Origin: Bradyrhizobium sp. NFR13
Lineage (GTDB): Bacteria; Pseudomonadota; Alphaproteobacteria; Rhizobiales; Xanthobacteraceae
Direction: 5' to 3'
DNA length: 64,000 bases
Assembly (NCBI RefSeq): GCF_900114605.1
Contig: NZ_FOTP01000002.1
Location: 62,001 to 126,000, forward strand
The notes under the pieces were generated by a model. The model was given only the letters and a program-made list of their open reading frames with translations. It searched no databases and had not been told where the DNA came from. Shown here piece by piece: positions 21,368 through 53,392 of the stretch; position 1 is the first letter of the stretch; every line of letters begins with the position of its first letter. A program made the position numbers and the translations under genes.

Positions 21368-22648
21368 ATGGATGATGCCATGAGCGAGCCAGTTCGAACC
21401 CCACCTTTCGCCGCCTTCGAATGGCTGCTGTCCGGACGCTATCTCCGTGCGCGCCGTAAAGAGGGATTCATCTCCGTCATTGCCGGCTTCTCGTTCCTCG
21501 GCATCATGCTCGGCGTTGCCACGCTGATCATCGTGATGGCCGTGATGAACGGCTTCCGCAAGGAGCTGCTCGACAAGATCCTGGGTCTCAACGGGCATCT
21601 CCTGGTGCAGCCGCTGGAAAGTCCCCTGACCGACTGGAAGGACGTCGCTGATCGCATCAGCGGCGTGAATGGCATTCGTCTCGCGGCGCCGGTCGTGGAT
21701 GGCCAGGGACTAGGATCATCCGCGTTCGGTGCTGCCGGCATCTTTATCCGCGGTATCCGCGCCGGCGACCTCAATAACCTCACGTCGATCGCCAAGAACA
21801 TCAAGCAGGGCACGCTCGAAGGCTTCGATGACGGGCAGGGTGTCGCGATCGGTCGGCGGCTGGCAGATCAGCTCTCGATCCATGCCGGCGACATGATCAC
21901 GTTGATCTCGCCGAAGGGGGCGGTGACCCCGATGGGCACGACGCCGCGCATCAAGCCCTACAAGGTTGCTGCCGTCTTCGAGATCGGCATGTCGGAATAT
22001 GACTCCACCTTCGTCTTCATGCCGTTGGCCGAGGCGCAGACTTACTTCAATCGCCCTTCTGACGTGACCTCCATTGAGGTCTACACCAACAATCCCGACC
22101 GGATCGACGAGTATCGCAAGCTCGTCACCGAGGCGGCCGGGCGGCCGATCTTCATCGTCGATTGGCGGCAGCGCAACTCGACCTTCTTCAATGCGCTGCA
22201 GGTCGAGCGCAACGTCATGTTCCTGATCCTGACTCTGATCGTGCTGGTGGCCGCGCTGAACATCGTCTCCGGCCTGATCATGCTGGTGAAGGACAAGGGC
22301 AGCGACATCGCCATCCTGCGCACAATGGGCGCCTCTCAAGGCTCGATCATGCGGGTGTTCCTGATCACAGGTGCCGCGATCGGCGTGGTCGGCACGCTGG
22401 TTGGCTTCTTTGTTGGGCTGCTGGTCTGCTTCAACATCGAGACGATCCGGCAATTCATCTCGTGGATGACATCCACAGAGCTGTTCTCGCCGGAGCTGTA
22501 TTTCCTGTCCAAGCTGCCGGCCGAGGTCGACATCGGCGAAACCAGCGCGGTGGTCATCATGGCGCTGACGCTGTCGTTCCTGGCGACCCTCTACCCGTCG
22601 TGGCGCGCCGCGCGCCTCGATCCCGTCGATGCGCTAAGATACGAGTGA
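21368..22648 (+). CDS. lolC: Lipoprotein-releasing ABC transporter permease (LolC/LolE)
   Basis: This permease extracts outer-membrane lipoproteins from the inner membrane. The 426-residue protein has the MacB/FtsX layout: a helix near residues 36-60, a large periplasmic domain, then three C-terminal helices with a final LATLYPSWRAARLDPVDALRYE, the typical LolC/E end. Only one permease gene is present, as in many alphaproteobacteria, where a single LolF-like protein replaces LolC plus LolE. A GGGAG stretch precedes the ATG. It is immediately followed by lolD, translationally coupled. Confidence 0.92.
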   Translation: MDDAMSEPVRTPPFAAFEWLLSGRYLRARRKEGFISVIAGFSFLGIMLGVATLIIVMAVMNGFRKELLDKILGLNGHLLVQPLESPLTDWKDVADRISGVNGIRLAAPVVDGQGLGSSAFGAAGIFIRGIRAGDLNNLTSIAKNIKQGTLEGFDDGQGVAIGRRLADQLSIHAGDMITLISPKGAVTPMGTTPRIKPYKVAAVFEIGMSEYDSTFVFMPLAEAQTYFNRPSDVTSIEVYTNNPDRIDEYRKLVTEAAGRPIFIVDWRQRNSTFFNALQVERNVMFLILTLIVLVAALNIVSGLIMLVKDKGSDIAILRTMGASQGSIMRVFLITGAAIGVVGTLVGFFVGLLVCFNIETIRQFISWMTSTELFSPELYFLSKLPAEVDIGETSAVVIMALTLSFLATLYPSWRAARLDPVDALRYE

Positions 22649-23356
22649 GTGACTGATATGGCGCAAGGGGCAGATGATGTACCGGTGGTCTATCTCCACG
22701 ACATCAAGCGGCAATACACCCAGGGCGAAAGCGTTCTGACCATTCTCGACAATGCCAAGCTGGCCTTGTGGGCGGGGCAGTCGGTCGCGCTGGTCGCGCC
22801 GTCGGGCTCGGGCAAGTCGACGCTGCTGCATATTGCGGGCCTGCTCGAGAGCCCGGATGACGGCGAGGTCTATGTCGGCGGTACCGCGACCTCGGGCCTG
22901 TCGGACACCGAGCGCACCCAGATCCGCCGCACCGATATCGGTTTCGTCTACCAGTCACATCGGCTGCTGCCGGAATTCACCGCGCTGGAAAACGTCATGC
23001 TGCCGCAGATGATCCGCGGCTTGAAGCGCTCCGAGACGGTCGCCCGCGCCAAGGAAATCCTGGCCTATCTGGGTCTGGGCGAACGCATCACGCATCGCCC
23101 GGCGGAGCTGTCGGGCGGCGAGCAGCAGCGCGTTGCGATTGCCCGCGCGGTGGCCAATGCACCGCGCGTGTTGTTTGCCGACGAGCCGACGGGAAATCTC
23201 GATCCGCATACCGCGGATCACGTCTTCAAGGCGCTGATGCAGCTAGTGAAGGCGACCAAGGTGGCGATGCTGATCGCGACCCACAATATGGAACTGGCCG
23301 GCCGCATGGACCGGCGGGTGTCGCTGGAAAACGGCAAGGTCGTCGAACTCGACTGA
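22649..23356 (+). CDS. lolD: Lipoprotein-releasing ABC transporter ATP-binding protein LolD
   Basis: This is the ATPase of the lipoprotein export system. It has 235 residues if the GTG directly after the permease stop is used, or 232 from the ATG at 22658. Walker A is [18 protein letters not shown], the signature is [19 protein letters not shown], and Walker B is [13 protein letters not shown], with the H-loop in [10 protein letters not shown]. All catalytic motifs are intact. Confidence 0.94.
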
Positions 23357-23383: not shown

Positions 23384-23415
23384 AAAAAGCGAGGCGCCGC
23401 GAACGGCGCCGTCGC
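23384..23415 (-). terminator. Rho-independent terminator of the DUF3551 gene
   Basis: On the minus strand, directly after the stop codon, the stem GGCGCCG/CGGCGCC (around a TTCG loop), flanked by further GCGA/TCGC pairs, is followed by CTTTTTCTC. This fits a terminator for the minus-strand gene. A T-run is lacking in the plus direction. Confidence 0.75.
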
Positions 23416-23709
23416 TCAGTAATTGCGGTTACGCTTGCGTTTCACGCGCGGCTGCTGCGGCGCGACGCCCTGTGCATAGGCGTAGGCCGGATTGGCAAAG
23501 CAGGTCAGGCCGATGCCCGATGCCGTCGCGGCACACTGCGCATAGGTGCGGTAGCTGCAGTCATCGTCGTCATAGAGCGAGCGCATGCAGAACGGATAGC
23601 CTGATGGCGTGTAAAAGGAGAACGGGCCGGGATCGACGGGCTGGGCTGCGGCGGGCGTGACGGTAAGGGCGGCGCCGAGGGCGACCAGAGCAAGCAGTAC
23701 TGCGCGCAT
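23416..23709 (-). CDS. DUF3551 family secreted protein
   Basis: This 97-residue protein starts MRAVLLALVALGAALTVTPA with a cleavable signal peptide ending near AAAQP. The mature part carries the DUF3551 pattern: SGYPFCMRSLYDDDDCSYRT then YAQCAATASGIGLTCFANP, with four cysteines likely forming disulfides, and a basic C-terminus VKRKRNRNY. Such proteins are abundant and of unknown function in Bradyrhizobium relatives. The start at 23709 is chosen because an AGGAGA site lies five bases upstream on the minus strand; a longer upstream frame lacks a signal peptide at its start. Confidence 0.85.
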   Translation of the reverse strand: MRAVLLALVALGAALTVTPAAAQPVDPGPFSFYTPSGYPFCMRSLYDDDDCSYRTYAQCAATASGIGLTCFANPAYAYAQGVAPQQPRVKRKRNRNY

Positions 23710-23978
23710 CAAATTCTCCTGCCGACTCAGATGGCCGGCTGCATGTGATCTCTGCCCGGCACAAAGCCGGTCCAAGAGGTATTCGTCAACTCACAAAGCC
23801 GGATTCCGCTCCGCATCCGGCGTCGGAAAACATGCCGTAGGGCTCGTGCGGCACATGCGACGCAATACGGCGCAAGGTATCCCGGCGAGGGACGGAGTTG
23901 GCTGGCTGGATGCGGAGCGTGCCAGCTCGCCGTCTTAACCATTCGGAACATGAGGCCCGACGCGCCCGGATGGGCTGC
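23710..23978. other. Non-coding region upstream of the DUF3551 gene
   Basis: No convincing gene. It should contain the minus-strand promoter for the DUF3551 gene. A plus-strand frame of 93 codons crosses it, but it starts inside the DUF3551 gene, has no ribosome site and has arginine-rich shadow composition. Confidence 0.5.
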
Positions 23979-24021
23979 TTGACTCCAGGAACAAAATGAG
24001 AACAATGTTCTTCATATGTTC
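23979..24021 (+). promoter_or_regulatory. LexA-type SOS promoter with two overlapping-phase boxes
   Basis: Two matches to the alphaproteobacterial LexA box (GTTC-N7-GTTC) lie four bases... apart: GAACAAAATGAGAAC at 23989-24003 (the reverse-complement orientation) and GTTCTTCATATGTTC at 24007-24021, separated by three bases. They sit on a promoter-like pair: TTGACT at 23979-23984 and AACAAT at 24001-24006, spacing 16. The first box fills the spacer and the second covers the start region. The microprotein gene begins 21 bases downstream. Two exact boxes in this position are very unlikely by chance. Confidence 0.8.
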
Positions 24022-24042
24022 CAGAGAGTCACGGAGGCCACC

Positions 24043-24141
24043 ATGTTGAAGACCTTTGTTGAAGAAGCCGCTGCACTGGCATCGATCGTTCTCTTCGTCG
24101 GCATGATTGCGGTCTGGGCGCAACTGATCCCCCAGCTCTGA
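24043..24141 (+). CDS. SOS-controlled 32-residue membrane microprotein, SidA-like in type
   Basis: The frame encodes 32 residues, beginning MLKTFVEEAAALASIVLFVG and ending WAQLIPQL. A strong GGAGG site (24032-24036) lies six bases before the ATG. An amphipathic, acidic N-terminus is followed by one transmembrane helix of about 18 residues. The double LexA box immediately upstream predicts DNA-damage induction. In Caulobacter, the LexA-controlled SidA is a 29-residue inner-membrane protein that blocks division through FtsW/FtsN. Size, topology and control match that type, but I do not claim sequence homology. It precedes dnaE by about 280 bases. Confidence 0.72.
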   Translation: MLKTFVEEAAALASIVLFVGMIAVWAQLIPQL

Positions 24142-24202
24142 TCCTGCTCCCGGAGGTCGGCTGCAAAGCCGGCGCCGGAACACCAGGGGAGCGCTCTGCG
24201 AA

Positions 24203-24285
24203 GGATGCGGGGACGCTCCCGGGGAATGACAGGCATTCTCAGGGGAATGACGAGCATCCCCCGGGGAATGCGGGGACGCTTCCGC
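24203..24285. repeat. Four tandem 20-21 bp imperfect-hairpin units
   Basis: Four head-to-tail units start at 24203, 24223, 24244 and 24265, each beginning GGAATG or GGATG and each containing its own short inverted repeat (for example GGAATG...CATTC, or GGATG...CGCTCC). Units diverge mainly in the middle: two have GCGGGGACGCT, the other two GACAGGCATTC and GACGAGCATCC. The array lies between the microprotein and dnaE. The rest of 24142-24424 shows nothing else I can name. Confidence 0.6.
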
Positions 24286-24424
24286 ACCCGAGCGGGTTTC
24301 GCATGGACTTGACCGGGGGCAGGCATCACCATGGGACAGCGAGTCGGCCTGAACAGGCGACCGCGATCCCCAGTGTCGATGACTGCCCAGATCGGGCGCT
24401 GCAAAGTCCGGATTGCCCTACGCC

Positions 24425-27400
24425 ATGAGTCAGAAGCCAGCCGCCGCGTCGAATGCCGGATTTGTCCATCTGCACGTGCATTCGGCCTATTCGCTGCTGA
24501 AGGGCTCGATCAAGATCCAGAAACTGGCGGAACTGGCCAAGGCCGACCATCAGCCGGCCCTTGCGCTGACCGATAGCGACAACATGTTTGGCGCGCTGGA
24601 ATTCTCCGAGAAGTTGGTGGGCTATGGCATCCAGCCGATCACCGGCTGCGAGGTCGCGATCGATTTCGGCGACCAGGATCCCAATGCCCGTAACGCGCTG
24701 AACGCCGTGATGCCGCGCATCGTGCTGCTGGCTGCAAAGGAGCGCGGCTATCAGAGCCTGATGAAACTCAACTCGCGGGCGTTTCTGGAAACGCCGGTCA
24801 ATCACGCGCCCCACATCAAGCTGGAATGGCTGCTGGAGGAAACCGAAGATCTGATCGCGTTGAGCGGCGGTCCGGACGGTCCGATCAGTCAGGCGCTGCT
24901 TGCCGATCAATCCGCGCTTGCCGCTTTGCGTTGCGACCGGCTCGCGTCGCTGTTCGGCGATCGGCTCTATATCGAACTGCAGCGTCATAGCGCCGAGAAG
25001 GAGCGCCGTGCCGAAGCAGGGCTGATCGATCTGGCCTACGCCAAGGGTCTGCCGCTAGTGGCAACGAACGAGCCCTATTTTGCCGCCGCGGATGACTATG
25101 AGGCTCACGACGCGCTGCTATGCATCGCCGGTGGCAGGATCATTGCCGAAACCGACCGCGAGCAGCTCACCACCGATCATCGCTTCAAGACCCGCGCCGA
25201 AATGGCGGTTCTGTTTGCCGACATTCCCGAGGCATTGGCGTCCACCGTCGAAATCGCCGAGCGCTGCTCGTTCCGGCCAAAGACACGCAAGCCGATCCTG
25301 CCGCGCTTCACGGTCGGTGCCGGCAGTAACGCCGAAGGTGCGGCCCAGGAGGAAGCCGACGAGTTGCGTCGCCAAGCCGAGGAGGGGCTGCGCAAACGTC
25401 TCGAGATCCACGGCGTGTCGCAGGGCAAGAGCGAGGAGGAATACCACGCGCGGCTCGACTTCGAACTCAACGTCATCTCCCGCATGAACTATGCGGGTTA
25501 CTTCCTGATCGTGTCCGACTTCATCAAATGGGCGAAGGCGCAGGGCATTCCGGTAGGGCCGGGCCGCGGTTCGGGCGCGGGCTCGCTGGTCGCCTGGGTC
25601 CTGACCATCACCGACCTCGATCCCTTGCAGTTCAACCTTCTGTTCGAACGCTTCCTCAATCCGGAACGCGTCTCGATGCCCGACTTCGACATCGACTTCT
25701 GCCAGGATCGCCGCGGCGAGGTGATCTCCTATGTGCAGCAGCGTTACGGTCGCGATCAGGTCGCGCAGATCATCACCTTCGGTACGCTGCAGGCGCGCGG
25801 CGTGTTGCGCGACGTCGGCCGTGTGCTGCAGATGCCTTATGGCCAGGTCGACAAACTGACCAAGCTGGTGCCGCAAAATCCGGCTGCACCGGTGACACTC
25901 GCAGCCGCGATCGAGGGCGAGCCGAAACTCCAGGCGTTCCGCGACGAGGATCCGATCGTCGCCAAAGCCTTCGACATCGCGCAGCGTCTCGAGGGCTTGA
26001 CGCGCCACGCCTCGACCCACGCCGCAGGCATTGTGATTGGCGACCGGCCGCTGTCGCAGCTCGTGCCGATGTATCGCGATCCGAAATCGGACATGCCGGT
26101 CACCCAGTTCAACATGAAATGGGTCGAGCCTGCAGGTCTCGTGAAGTTCGACTTCCTCGGCCTGAAGACGTTGACGGTGCTCGACGTTGCCGTGAAGCTG
26201 CTCAAGCAGCGCAATATTGACGTCAATCTTGCGACCACGCCGATTACCGATGCGGCTAGCTACGAAATGCTGGCGCGCGGTGAAGTGGTCGGCGTGTTCC
26301 AGGTGGAAAGCCAGGGCATGCGGCGCGCGCTTGTGGACATGCGCCCCGACCGTTTCGAAGACATCATCGCGCTCGTCGCGTTGTATCGTCCGGGCCCGAT
26401 GGCGAACATCCCGACCTATTGCGCGCGCAAGCATGGCGATGAAGAGCCGGAATATCTGCATCCGATCATCGAGCCGATCCTGAAGGAAACCTTCGGCGTC
26501 ATCATCTATCAGGAACAGGTGATGCAGATCGCGCAGGTCATGGCCGGCTATTCGCTCGGTGACGCCGACCTGTTGCGCCGCGCGATGGGCAAGAAGATCC
26601 GCGCCGAAATGGAAAAGCAGCGCGAGATTTTCGTCGCGGGCTCCGTCAAGAACGGCGTGCCGAAGGGGCAGGCCGATACGATCTTCGATCTGCTCGCGAA
26701 GTTCGCCGACTACGGCTTCAACAAGAGCCACGCTGCGGCCTATGCGCTGGTGTCGTATCACACCGCCTTTATGAAGGCGCATTATCCGGTGGAGTTCATT
26801 GCGGCGTCGATGACGCTCGACATGGGCAATACCGACAAGCTGTCGGAATTCCGCGCCGAGGCGCAGCGGCTCGGTATCAAGGTCGAGGCGCCGAACATCA
26901 ATCGTTCGGGCGTCACCTTCGAGGTCAGCGACAACACGATCTATTATGCGCTGGCGGCGTTGAAAGGCGTCGGCGCCGGCGCCGTCGAGCAGATCGTCGC
27001 CGAGCGCAACAAGAACGGCCTGTTCACGTCGCTTGCCGACTTCGCATCGCGCGTGAGCCCACGCGCTGTCAACAAGCGCATCATCGAAACGCTCGCCGCG
27101 GCCGGCGCCTTCGATACGCTTGATCCGCATCGCGCCCGTGTCCATGCTGGCGCGGATAGCATTCTCGCTGCCTGCCAGCGTGCCAACGAGGCGGTGACCT
27201 CCGGACAGAACGACATGTTCGGCGGCGCCGTGGATGCGCCGACGGTGATGCTGCCGCAGATCGACAACTGGCTGGCGGCGGAGAAGCTGCGCAAGGAATA
27301 CGATGCCATCGGCTTCTTCCTGTCCGGCCATCCGCTCGATGATTATGCGACCGCGCTGAAGCGGCTGCGGGTGCAGAGCTGGGCCGAGTTCTGCCGCGCC

Positions 27401-41731: not shown

Positions 41732-41960
41732 TGTGATATGGCTCCGATGGCGTATTGACGAACCCAAGGTGCCTCATCGCGTCGATCAGCTCGGCAAGGC
41801 TGTGGACGTTCAGGCTGCGCATCGCGTTCTCGCGATGCTTGCGGACGGTGAGGGGGCTGATCCCGAGTTTGCGGGCGATCTGCTTGCTGGTGAGGCCAAC
41901 AGCAATGAGCCGCGCGACGTCGATTTCGCGCGGTCGAAGGATGGGTCGGCTGCCGATCAA
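41718..41960 (-). CDS. Stand-alone LuxR-type HTH regulator 2
   Basis: This protein of 80 residues is almost only a GerE/LuxR DNA-binding domain: LRPREIDVARLIAVGLTSKQ then IARKLGISPLTVRKHR and a dimer-helix region ending LIDAMRHLG. There is no receiver or autoinducer-binding domain. Its ATG overlaps the stop of the preceding HTH gene (ATGA), so the pair is translationally coupled. Confidence 0.8.
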   Translation of the reverse strand: MIGSRPILRPREIDVARLIAVGLTSKQIARKLGISPLTVRKHRENAMRSLNVHSLAELIDAMRHLGFVNTPSEPYHTTNG

Positions 41961-42214
41961 AAAGACCGGTCGTGTCTTTCACGCTGATCGACGTGCTGCA
42001 ATGTCTCGCCAACTTGCGGCGTGTTGGTGACAGATGTCTTGGCGAAGGCGGTGAGTTGCGCCGTGGTTCCCAGCCGCATCTTGTGCAGGATGCTCGCGCG
42101 ATGCTTGCGGACGGTGAACTCGGAAATGGCAAGGGCGCGTGCGATCTGCTTGCAGCTCATCGACTGGCCAACCAGCGATAATACTTCCTCCTCCCGATTG
42201 GTCAGACGCGCCAT
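41957..42214 (-). CDS. Stand-alone LuxR-type HTH regulator 1
   Basis: This 85-residue protein consists of a GerE/LuxR domain, LTNREEEVLSLVGQSMSCKQ then IARALAISEFTVRKHRASIL and LGTTAQLTAFAK, plus a charged C-terminal tail of about 25 residues (LQHVDQRERHDRSF). It shares the KQIAR and TVRKHR positions with the next gene, so the two may come from a duplication. It is first in the minus-strand island; the LexA-type box at 42243-42257 lies 29-43 bases upstream. The ribosome site is weak. Confidence 0.78.
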   Translation of the reverse strand: MARLTNREEEVLSLVGQSMSCKQIARALAISEFTVRKHRASILHKMRLGTTAQLTAFAKTSVTNTPQVGETLQHVDQRERHDRSF

Positions 42215-42242: not shown

Positions 42243-42273
42243 GAACATATCATGAACATTTTGAGTTCAGCAA
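42243..42273 (-). promoter_or_regulatory. LexA-type SOS box and promoter of the LuxR/RhiA-like island
   Basis: On the minus strand GTTCATGATATGTTC (42243-42257) matches GTTC-N7-GTTC exactly. A promoter-like TTGCTG (42268-42273) and TATGTT (42244-42249), 18 bases apart, place the box over the -10 region, as expected for repression. The last eight bases (ATATGTTC) are identical to those of the microprotein box at 24014-24021. A single 8-base match can arise about twice in 64 kb by chance, so position and spacer similarity are what support it. Confidence 0.6.
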
Positions 42274-52477: not shown

Positions 52478-53200
52478 TCAGTAGCGGCGATACAGGCCGA
52501 TCAGCTTGCCCTGAATGCGCACCCGGTTGGGTGGCAGGATACGGACCTCGTAGGCGTCATTCGCAGGCTCCAGCGCGATCGACGCGCCGCGGCGGCGGAA
52601 GCGCTTTAGCGTGGCTTCCTCGTCGTCGATCAGAGCCACCACGATGTCGCCGGTGTCGGCGCTCTCGTTGCGCTGGATCAGCACCGTGTCGCCATCGAGA
52701 ATGCCGGCGTCCTGCATGGAATCGCCGCGCACTTCGAGCGCGTAATGTTCGCCGGAGCCGAGCATGTCGGCGGGCATGCTGATGGTGTGGCTGCGGGTCT
52801 GCAGCGCCTCGATCGGCGTACCGGCCGCGATCCGGCCCATGACCGGGATAGCAACCGTGCGGCCATTGTCATCATCGCCGCTGTTGCTGGCGATGCTGGC
52901 GGCCGAACGCACCTTGCCAAGCGTGCCTTCGATGACGCTGGGCGTGAAGCCGCGGCGCCCGGTGCCGCCGGTGACCGGCGCGCCGAGCTCTGGCAGCTTG
53001 ATGACTTCGATGGCACGGGCGCGGTTGGGCAGACGGCGTATGAAGCCGCGTTCTTCCAGCGCCGTGATCAGACGATGGATGCCGGACTTCGAGCGCAGGT
53101 CGAGCGCATCCTTCATCTCGTCGAAGGACGGCGGGACGCCGGCTTCCTTCAGCCGTTGATCGATGAATCGCAGGAGTTCGTATTGTTTGCGCGTGAGCAT
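52478..53200 (-). CDS. lexA: SOS-response repressor LexA
   Basis: LexA represses damage-inducible genes and self-cleaves when RecA is activated. It has 240 residues. The winged HTH contains [20 protein letters not shown]. After a long alphaproteobacterial linker come the cleavage site Ala126-Gly127 in [11 protein letters not shown], the nucleophile Ser161 in [15 protein letters not shown] and the base Lys199 in [12 protein letters not shown]. All catalytic elements are intact. A matching box lies 173-187 bases upstream. Confidence 0.96.
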
Positions 53201-53361: not shown

Positions 53362-53392
53362 GAACACTATATGTTCCATATGTGTTCTGCAA
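53362..53392 (-). promoter_or_regulatory. lexA: LexA autoregulatory SOS box and promoter
   Basis: GTTCCATATGTGTTC (53373-53387) matches GTTC-N7-GTTC, and it overlaps a GAAC-N7-GTTC element at 53362-53376. On the minus strand TTGCAG (53387-53392) and TATAGT (53366-53371) form a promoter with 15-base spacing, the box filling the spacer. This gives a leader of about 160 bases before lexA. The remaining 53201-53500 sequence shows no gene. Confidence 0.7.

Follow-up and report, generated by a model that had tools for sequence, protein, structure and literature searches.

A candidate SidA-type SOS division inhibitor of 32 residues behind mutually inverted LexA boxes in Bradyrhizobium

The locus addressed here lies in a 64,000-nt stretch of the genome of Bradyrhizobium sp. 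NFR13 (contig NZ_FOTP01000002.1, positions 62,001 to 126,000; the whole stretch is called the window below), where a frame of 32 codons follows a promoter carrying two LexA-type boxes. Does this frame encode an SOS-controlled inhibitor of cell division comparable to SidA of Caulobacter crescentus? A sequence-only reading had proposed such a product on the basis of two exact GTTC-N7-GTTC boxes 3 bases apart, a TTGACT/AACAAT promoter, and a GGAGG motif ahead of the 32-codon frame, and each of these elements was recovered at the positions given in Table 1. The two boxes lie on opposite strands, a detail absent from that reading, and the pair has the layout GAAC-N7-GAAC-NNN-GTTC-N7-GTTC, i.e., the boxes are mutually inverted. 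Our comparisons suggest that the microprotein is probably a LexA-repressed, SidA-homologous SOS division-checkpoint inhibitor of septal wall synthesis, its induction, the division arrest, and the target being predicted from sequence.

Judging from its substitution pattern, the 32-codon frame is a real gene under strong purifying selection. The ratio of nonsynonymous to synonymous variation (pN/pS), computed over a set of 17 close loci that contains the window locus, was 0.029 in this frame, while the remaining forward frames gave 2.0 and 10.9. A longer in-frame alternative starting from ATG 24016 (41 amino acids) sits within box 2 and was rejected, as an in-frame upstream start is absent from 21 of 50 loci; by this comparison, the conserved start is ATG 24043, which gives the 32-residue product. 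Because the distance between box 2 and the start codon varies by single bases across loci, the boxes were not read as codons. The single transmembrane helix noticed earlier is supported as a prediction by the mean Kyte-Doolittle hydropathy of residues 8 to 28 (1.70; alignment A1) and by an AlphaFold2 model consisting of one helix (residues 2 to 31; mean predicted local distance difference test score, 97.1). In both size and predicted fold, the product is thus close to SidA, which has about 29 residues and a single helix. Phe18 and Trp25 are the invariant residues of the microprotein family in alignment A1. The microprotein had no match in Pfam, and two matches in PHROGs (E values, 0.076 and 0.17) were judged to be due to chance.

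Both the peptide and the boxes are conserved in relatives, which were searched as the sequence-only reading had suggested. With the peptide as the only query, 101 genomes were searched in translation; 55 of them had matches at E values of up to 1, in 59 places, and the locus counts given here and below refer to the best 50 of these 59 places (L001 to L050), including the window's own locus and two loci from one genome (G021). The lowest nine places (L051 to L059) were dropped; an exact box was present in four of them (L053, L055, L056, and L057) and absent from five. One or more exact boxes were found in the 150 nt 5' of the frame at all 50 loci, boxes in both directions at 45, and the exact 3-bp pair at 41. 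At every one of these 41 loci, a TTGA(C/T) motif starts 8 to 11 nt 5' of box 1, and a motif resembling a ribosome-binding site was found in 50/50 loci. Control patterns with spacings of 6 or 8 were found in none of the 50 loci, two other tetramers were found in 2/50 and 0/50 loci, and the true box pattern was absent from the 150 nt 3' of the frame at all 50 loci.

Single exact boxes say little alone, since the window count (5, versus 1.58 expected) was reached in 3 of 100 shuffles. The paired-box pattern, by contrast with the single box, has one place in the entire 6.2-Mb genome, and the reversed paired pattern had no match in the same 6.2 Mb. A chance origin of the boxes was rejected because the pair is unique in the genome and conserved in relatives. 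In the reverse test, the GTDB genome collection was scanned for the paired pattern only, with no peptide in the query, and at least 119 stretches were obtained, of which 93, among the matches listed, encode the microprotein within 260 nt. The genera of these 93 carriers include Bradyrhizobium, Rhodopseudomonas, Afipia, Tardiphaga, Pseudolabrys, and Pseudorhodoplanes. The 26 listed stretches without the microprotein bear titles of archaea, other phyla, other proteobacteria, or unnamed bacteria, with a single exception. This is L364:3716-3748 in Bradyrhizobium jicamae SZCCT0349, the only paired site with an alphaproteobacterial title, among the matches listed, that has no adjacent microprotein.

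A microprotein-family profile built from 38 members (alignment A1) matched 148 of the 198 genomes from the host's family at E values of up to 0.01 and 115 of the 297 from the order, which we read as Hyphomicrobiales, at E values of up to 0.05, chance matches included. Of the weaker order matches, 72 were examined (E values, 2e-7 to 0.01); these were mostly frames of 25 to 40 residues (68/72), and an exact box was located within 150 nt upstream of 48 of the 72. Among control windows taken from the same DNA, 3 of 316 had one. All 48 boxed matches are frames of this length, and one of them (L180) has its sole box at a distance, at position -144. Four of the 24 matches with no exact box are not short frames, and the remaining ones include a 27- to 31-residue form from one family of the order (f215), some second copies, and near-matches that are one base off. 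Two matches with E values of up to 0.01 stand outside the 72, namely, those in G289 (L120, boxed) and in G039:C13 (L052, no box). Of L143 to L169 (27 loci, partly repeats of places listed before), all but one were resolved, and a box was present in 25 of these 26. A scan of the class with the same profile matched 22 of 385 genomes; an exact box precedes L120, a locus from the same order, but none of the 19 matches outside the order (L121 to L139). These 19 matches are probably due to chance, and the profile probably does not extend the family beyond the order.

Some copies differ in form or setting. The f215 loci L170, L178, L183 to L185, L195, L205, L211, and L214 carry the shortened form of 27 to 31 residues (MIIRDVLALGSLITFMSM...) with no exact box; by eye, sites resembling GAACAAAACAAATAC are present there, two bases off. 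A further copy without any near box was seen in two genomes (L209 and L210). A SidA-like peptide of 30 residues that lacks a LexA box is encoded at L250:8264-8353 (minus strand), in the same-genus genome G017, within an apparent integrated phage-like element. Its gene lies between a tyrosine integrase gene (PF00589) and one for a Peptidase_S24-domain protein (PF00717), with a lipoyl-ligase gene nearby; this peptide is possibly the phage's own division blocker. The tblastn searches of phages and plasmids with the window peptide and of phages with one prophage-borne copy gave no matches.

How is this family related to SidA? The NCBIfam SidA model (NF033228) aligned with the window peptide without gaps (14.6 bits; E value, 0.024), placing residues 8 to 29 on model positions 7 to 28. 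Against a background of membrane helices, the window peptide scored 13.7 bits with the SidA model versus 3.7 bits for the best of 670 windows, and 21 of 38 microprotein rows scored above every such window; conversely, with the microprotein-family model, 18 of 22 SidA rows scored above 99% of the 670 windows. The link is strengthened by intermediate sequences from the f105 genomes, which were taken for Caulobacteraceae and in 61 of 99 cases contain a SidA call above the cut-off of the SidA model. The best four matches of the family profile in these 99 genomes were in G403, G417, G391, and G425, and the last three overlap loci called SidA by NCBI. The SidA proteins of these three genomes scored 18.6 to 20.2 bits with the microprotein-family model and 41 to 47 bits with the SidA model, and that of G417 (L243), MRLLIREGAALASISAFVWMVCTAAQLVS, resembles the window peptide MLKTFVEEAAALASIVLFVGMIAVWAQLIPQL by eye. 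The genome with the remaining match, G403, contains a 29-residue frame (L242) scoring 21.8 bits with the microprotein-family model versus 10.6 bits with the SidA model; no near box was found upstream of it, and the NCBI SidA model finds nothing in this genome at an E value of 0.05.

The promoter regions of the two groups are also alike. In a set of 32 Caulobacteraceae loci (L060, L064, and L090 to L119), 29 of which were resolved, two sites that differ from the box by at most one base were found in the 85 nt 5' of the start in 28/29 SidA genes, compared to 2/866 control windows. At least one exact box was present upstream of 20 of the 29 genes; L060 and L064 have two exact boxes each, and L112 has one. 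The paired sites at the SidA loci share one direction, unlike the inverted pair at the microprotein loci. In the class sample, the SidA model had matches in 107 of 289 genomes at E values of up to 1; of 30 loci from these matches, 9 were examined, and a matching frame together with boxes was seen only in L060 and L064. Taken together, common descent of the microprotein family and SidA appears quite probable, and the link is likely to go beyond analogy, short of proof. The earlier designation as a SidA-type candidate has thereby gained sequence support through the intermediate Caulobacteraceae SidA proteins, and it is the proof of homology that it still falls short of.

Several results weigh against a SidA-type inhibitor. 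The score of the window peptide is below the NCBI cut-off of 35 bits for SidA (NF033228, an equivalog model), which was exceeded in none of the 289 class-sample genomes. In the reciprocal search, 3 of 37 f105 matches (E values of up to 1) coincided with SidA loci; where the SidA model made an above-cut-off call (61 genomes), the family profile missed the called locus in 58. A profile-profile comparison with hhalign gave a probability of 15% (E value, 0.0018), none of the 22 SidA rows beat the best membrane-helix window under the microprotein-family model (13.7 bits), and the best of 7,600 shuffles reached 15.5 bits with the SidA model, compared to 13.7 bits for the window peptide. Within the family of the host, 50 of 198 genomes had no profile match at an E value of 0.01. 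In addition, SidA has Phe17 and Trp19; Phe17 falls in the same alignment column as Phe18 of the microprotein family, whereas the Trp19 column lies about five residues from that of the invariant Trp25, and therefore the contact surface may differ from that of SidA. The candidate target was also considered. According to the available part of PMC4211646, the substitutions A31K, F145L, and A246T in FtsW overcome SidA in Caulobacter. One FtsW/RodA-family protein was found in the genome of the window and one in G041 (same family), and A31, F145, and A246 are present in both (residue numbers were counted on FtsW of the f105 genome G483, which has exactly these residues at these positions). Their conservation is only consistent with a SidA-type target, as the FtsW proteins are only 45% identical overall (172/382) and three kept residues are weak evidence. 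A modeling study places SidA on transmembrane segment 7 of FtsW with low confidence (PMC13396833, available part).

GTTC-N7-GTTC is the LexA operator consensus of alphaproteobacteria. As in other members of the alphaproteobacterial LexA regulon, the operator overlaps the promoter here, and the window also contains lexA with an exact box of its own; the presence of a LexA box in the promoter is a further feature in common with sidA. In undamaged cells, LexA bound to the paired boxes would cover the spacer, the -10 hexamer, and the likely transcription start, keeping the gene off, and the promoter shut in this manner appears close to consensus. Upon DNA damage, RecA on single-stranded DNA would trigger LexA cleavage, and the promoter would be freed. 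The 32-residue peptide would then be made and inserted as one helix in the inner membrane, where it may hold the FtsW/FtsI/FtsN complex inactive, so that septal wall synthesis would pause until the DNA is repaired.

The same size class, single predicted helix, and SOS-type control would also suit another kind of SOS-induced membrane peptide, which would lower the membrane potential and slow growth without acting on the divisome directly. TisB of Escherichia coli is an SOS-induced membrane peptide that acts in this manner. The available part of PMC3567139 describes DinQ of E. coli as an SOS-regulated toxic single-transmembrane peptide. We consider such an activity unlikely for the microprotein, which resembles SidA, whose known action is on FtsW/FtsI/FtsN; moreover, its strictly kept Phe and Trp suggest specific helix contacts, and an Rfam search of positions 23400 to 24430 (E values of up to 1), which an undescribed RNA would escape, gave no match to antitoxin RNAs or any other known family. 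A target other than the divisome seems slightly less probable still: the peptide, either with a SidA-like ancestor or merely resembling SidA, would be an SOS-induced regulator of another membrane protein, as the different placement of its invariant Trp and its score far below the SidA cut-off could suggest. However, both groups keep LexA-type control, size, and paired sites, and the residues in question are retained in FtsW, on which SidA is known to act. That dnaE is located downstream in 49/50 loci could indicate that LexA controls an RNA or a dnaE leader, with the short frame being incidental, but this is very improbable considering that the low pN/pS is confined to this frame, that the 48 boxed weaker order matches all encode 25 to 40 residues, and that 283 nt separate the end of the frame from the dnaE start codon. 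Extending the SidA-type reading, one may tentatively imagine, with more doubt than confidence, that Hyphomicrobiales and Caulobacterales share an SOS division checkpoint inherited from one ancestor, built on a SidA-type microprotein with paired LexA boxes and missed through length and divergence. Its contact surface on FtsW would have shifted between the orders (Trp25 versus Trp19), and integrated phage-like elements would have taken up copies without boxes as their own division blockers.

The lolC and lolD genes are on the 5' side of the locus (Table 1), and lolD was found upstream in 28/50 loci, a count limited by short flanks. Short imperfect direct repeats around GGGGAATG are located between the microprotein frame and dnaE (positions 24205 to 24284). 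Elsewhere in the window (positions 41957 to 42214, minus strand), an 85-residue LuxR-type DNA-binding protein (PF00196) is encoded, with an exact LexA box at positions 42243 to 42257, 28 nt 5' of its start; this may be a further SOS gene.

Table 1. Coordinates, within the window, of the features of the microprotein locus and of lexA
Feature	Position	Strand	Remark
-35 hexamer TTGACT	23979..23984	+	From the sequence
LexA box 1 (GTTCTCATTTTGTTC on the minus strand)	23989..24003	-	Fills most of the -35/-10 spacer and overlaps the -10 hexamer; putative LexA binding
-10 hexamer AACAAT	24001..24006	+	16-nt spacer; putative assignment
LexA box 2 (GTTCTTCATATGTTC)	24007..24021	+	Directly 3' of the -10 hexamer; putative LexA binding
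Ribosome-binding site GGAGG	24033..24037	+	From the sequence
32-residue microprotein (MLKTFVEEAAALASIVLFVGMIAVWAQLIPQL), SidA-type candidate	24043..24141 (ATG to TGA)	+	One predicted membrane helix
lolC	21368-22648		5' of the microprotein locus; name from reading of open reading frames
lolD	22649-23356		5' of the microprotein locus; name from reading of open reading frames
dnaE	ATG at 24425		3' of the microprotein locus; name from reading of open reading frames
lexA	52478..53200	-	240 residues; expected repressor; PF01726 and PF00717 above cut-off
Exact LexA box ahead of lexA	53373..53387	+	Putative autoregulation

In agreement with the suggestion that the microprotein may be undescribed, a literature search that covered mainly titles and abstract openings and fell short of most subscription journals turned up no account of SidA outside Caulobacter and, for Bradyrhizobium and its kin, none of any SOS division inhibitor; possible mentions of SidA in two papers proved to name the Holm-Sidak test. 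With this locus, Bradyrhizobium, Rhodopseudomonas, Afipia, and their kin have a specific candidate for their SOS division inhibitor. If the assignment is correct, SidA would be no Caulobacter peculiarity and would instead be part of an old alphaproteobacterial checkpoint acting on septal wall synthesis and not on FtsZ. With more than 100 natural loci and one FtsW/RodA-family protein found in the host, the interface between the helix and FtsW is directly testable.

SidA is the closest of the known systems. Its induction by DNA damage depends on RecA and LexA, and it blocks division at FtsW/FtsI/FtsN, a block that mutations in ftsW or ftsI relieve; for the microprotein, both properties are predictions. 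SidA is named for C. crescentus in a review (PMC9578287, available part), and the filamentation of lexA mutants runs through it, as stated in the available portions of PMC12700426 and PMC13384398. The SidA proteins (NF033228) and the microprotein are alike in length (29 to 32 residues), in the single helix, in LexA control, and in the paired box-like sites at a similar distance 5' of the start. In contrast, the boxes point in the same direction at the SidA loci and face each other at the microprotein loci, and the window microprotein is below the family cut-off, has its Trp elsewhere, and adjoins dnaE, its function in the Bradyrhizobium lineage being a prediction. The other systems are likened by description, not by sequence. 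DidA of Caulobacter is also a small DNA damage-induced division inhibitor acting on the FtsW/FtsI/FtsN complex (PMC4211646, available part), but it is SOS independent and driven by DriD. YneA of Bacillus, SosA of Staphylococcus, and ChiZ of Mycobacterium are DNA damage-induced membrane division inhibitors from other phyla, and YneA binds FtsW, as described in the available part of PMC13396833. SulA of E. coli has the same role in an SOS division checkpoint, whereas its target is FtsZ polymerization, according to the part of PMC4211646 available.
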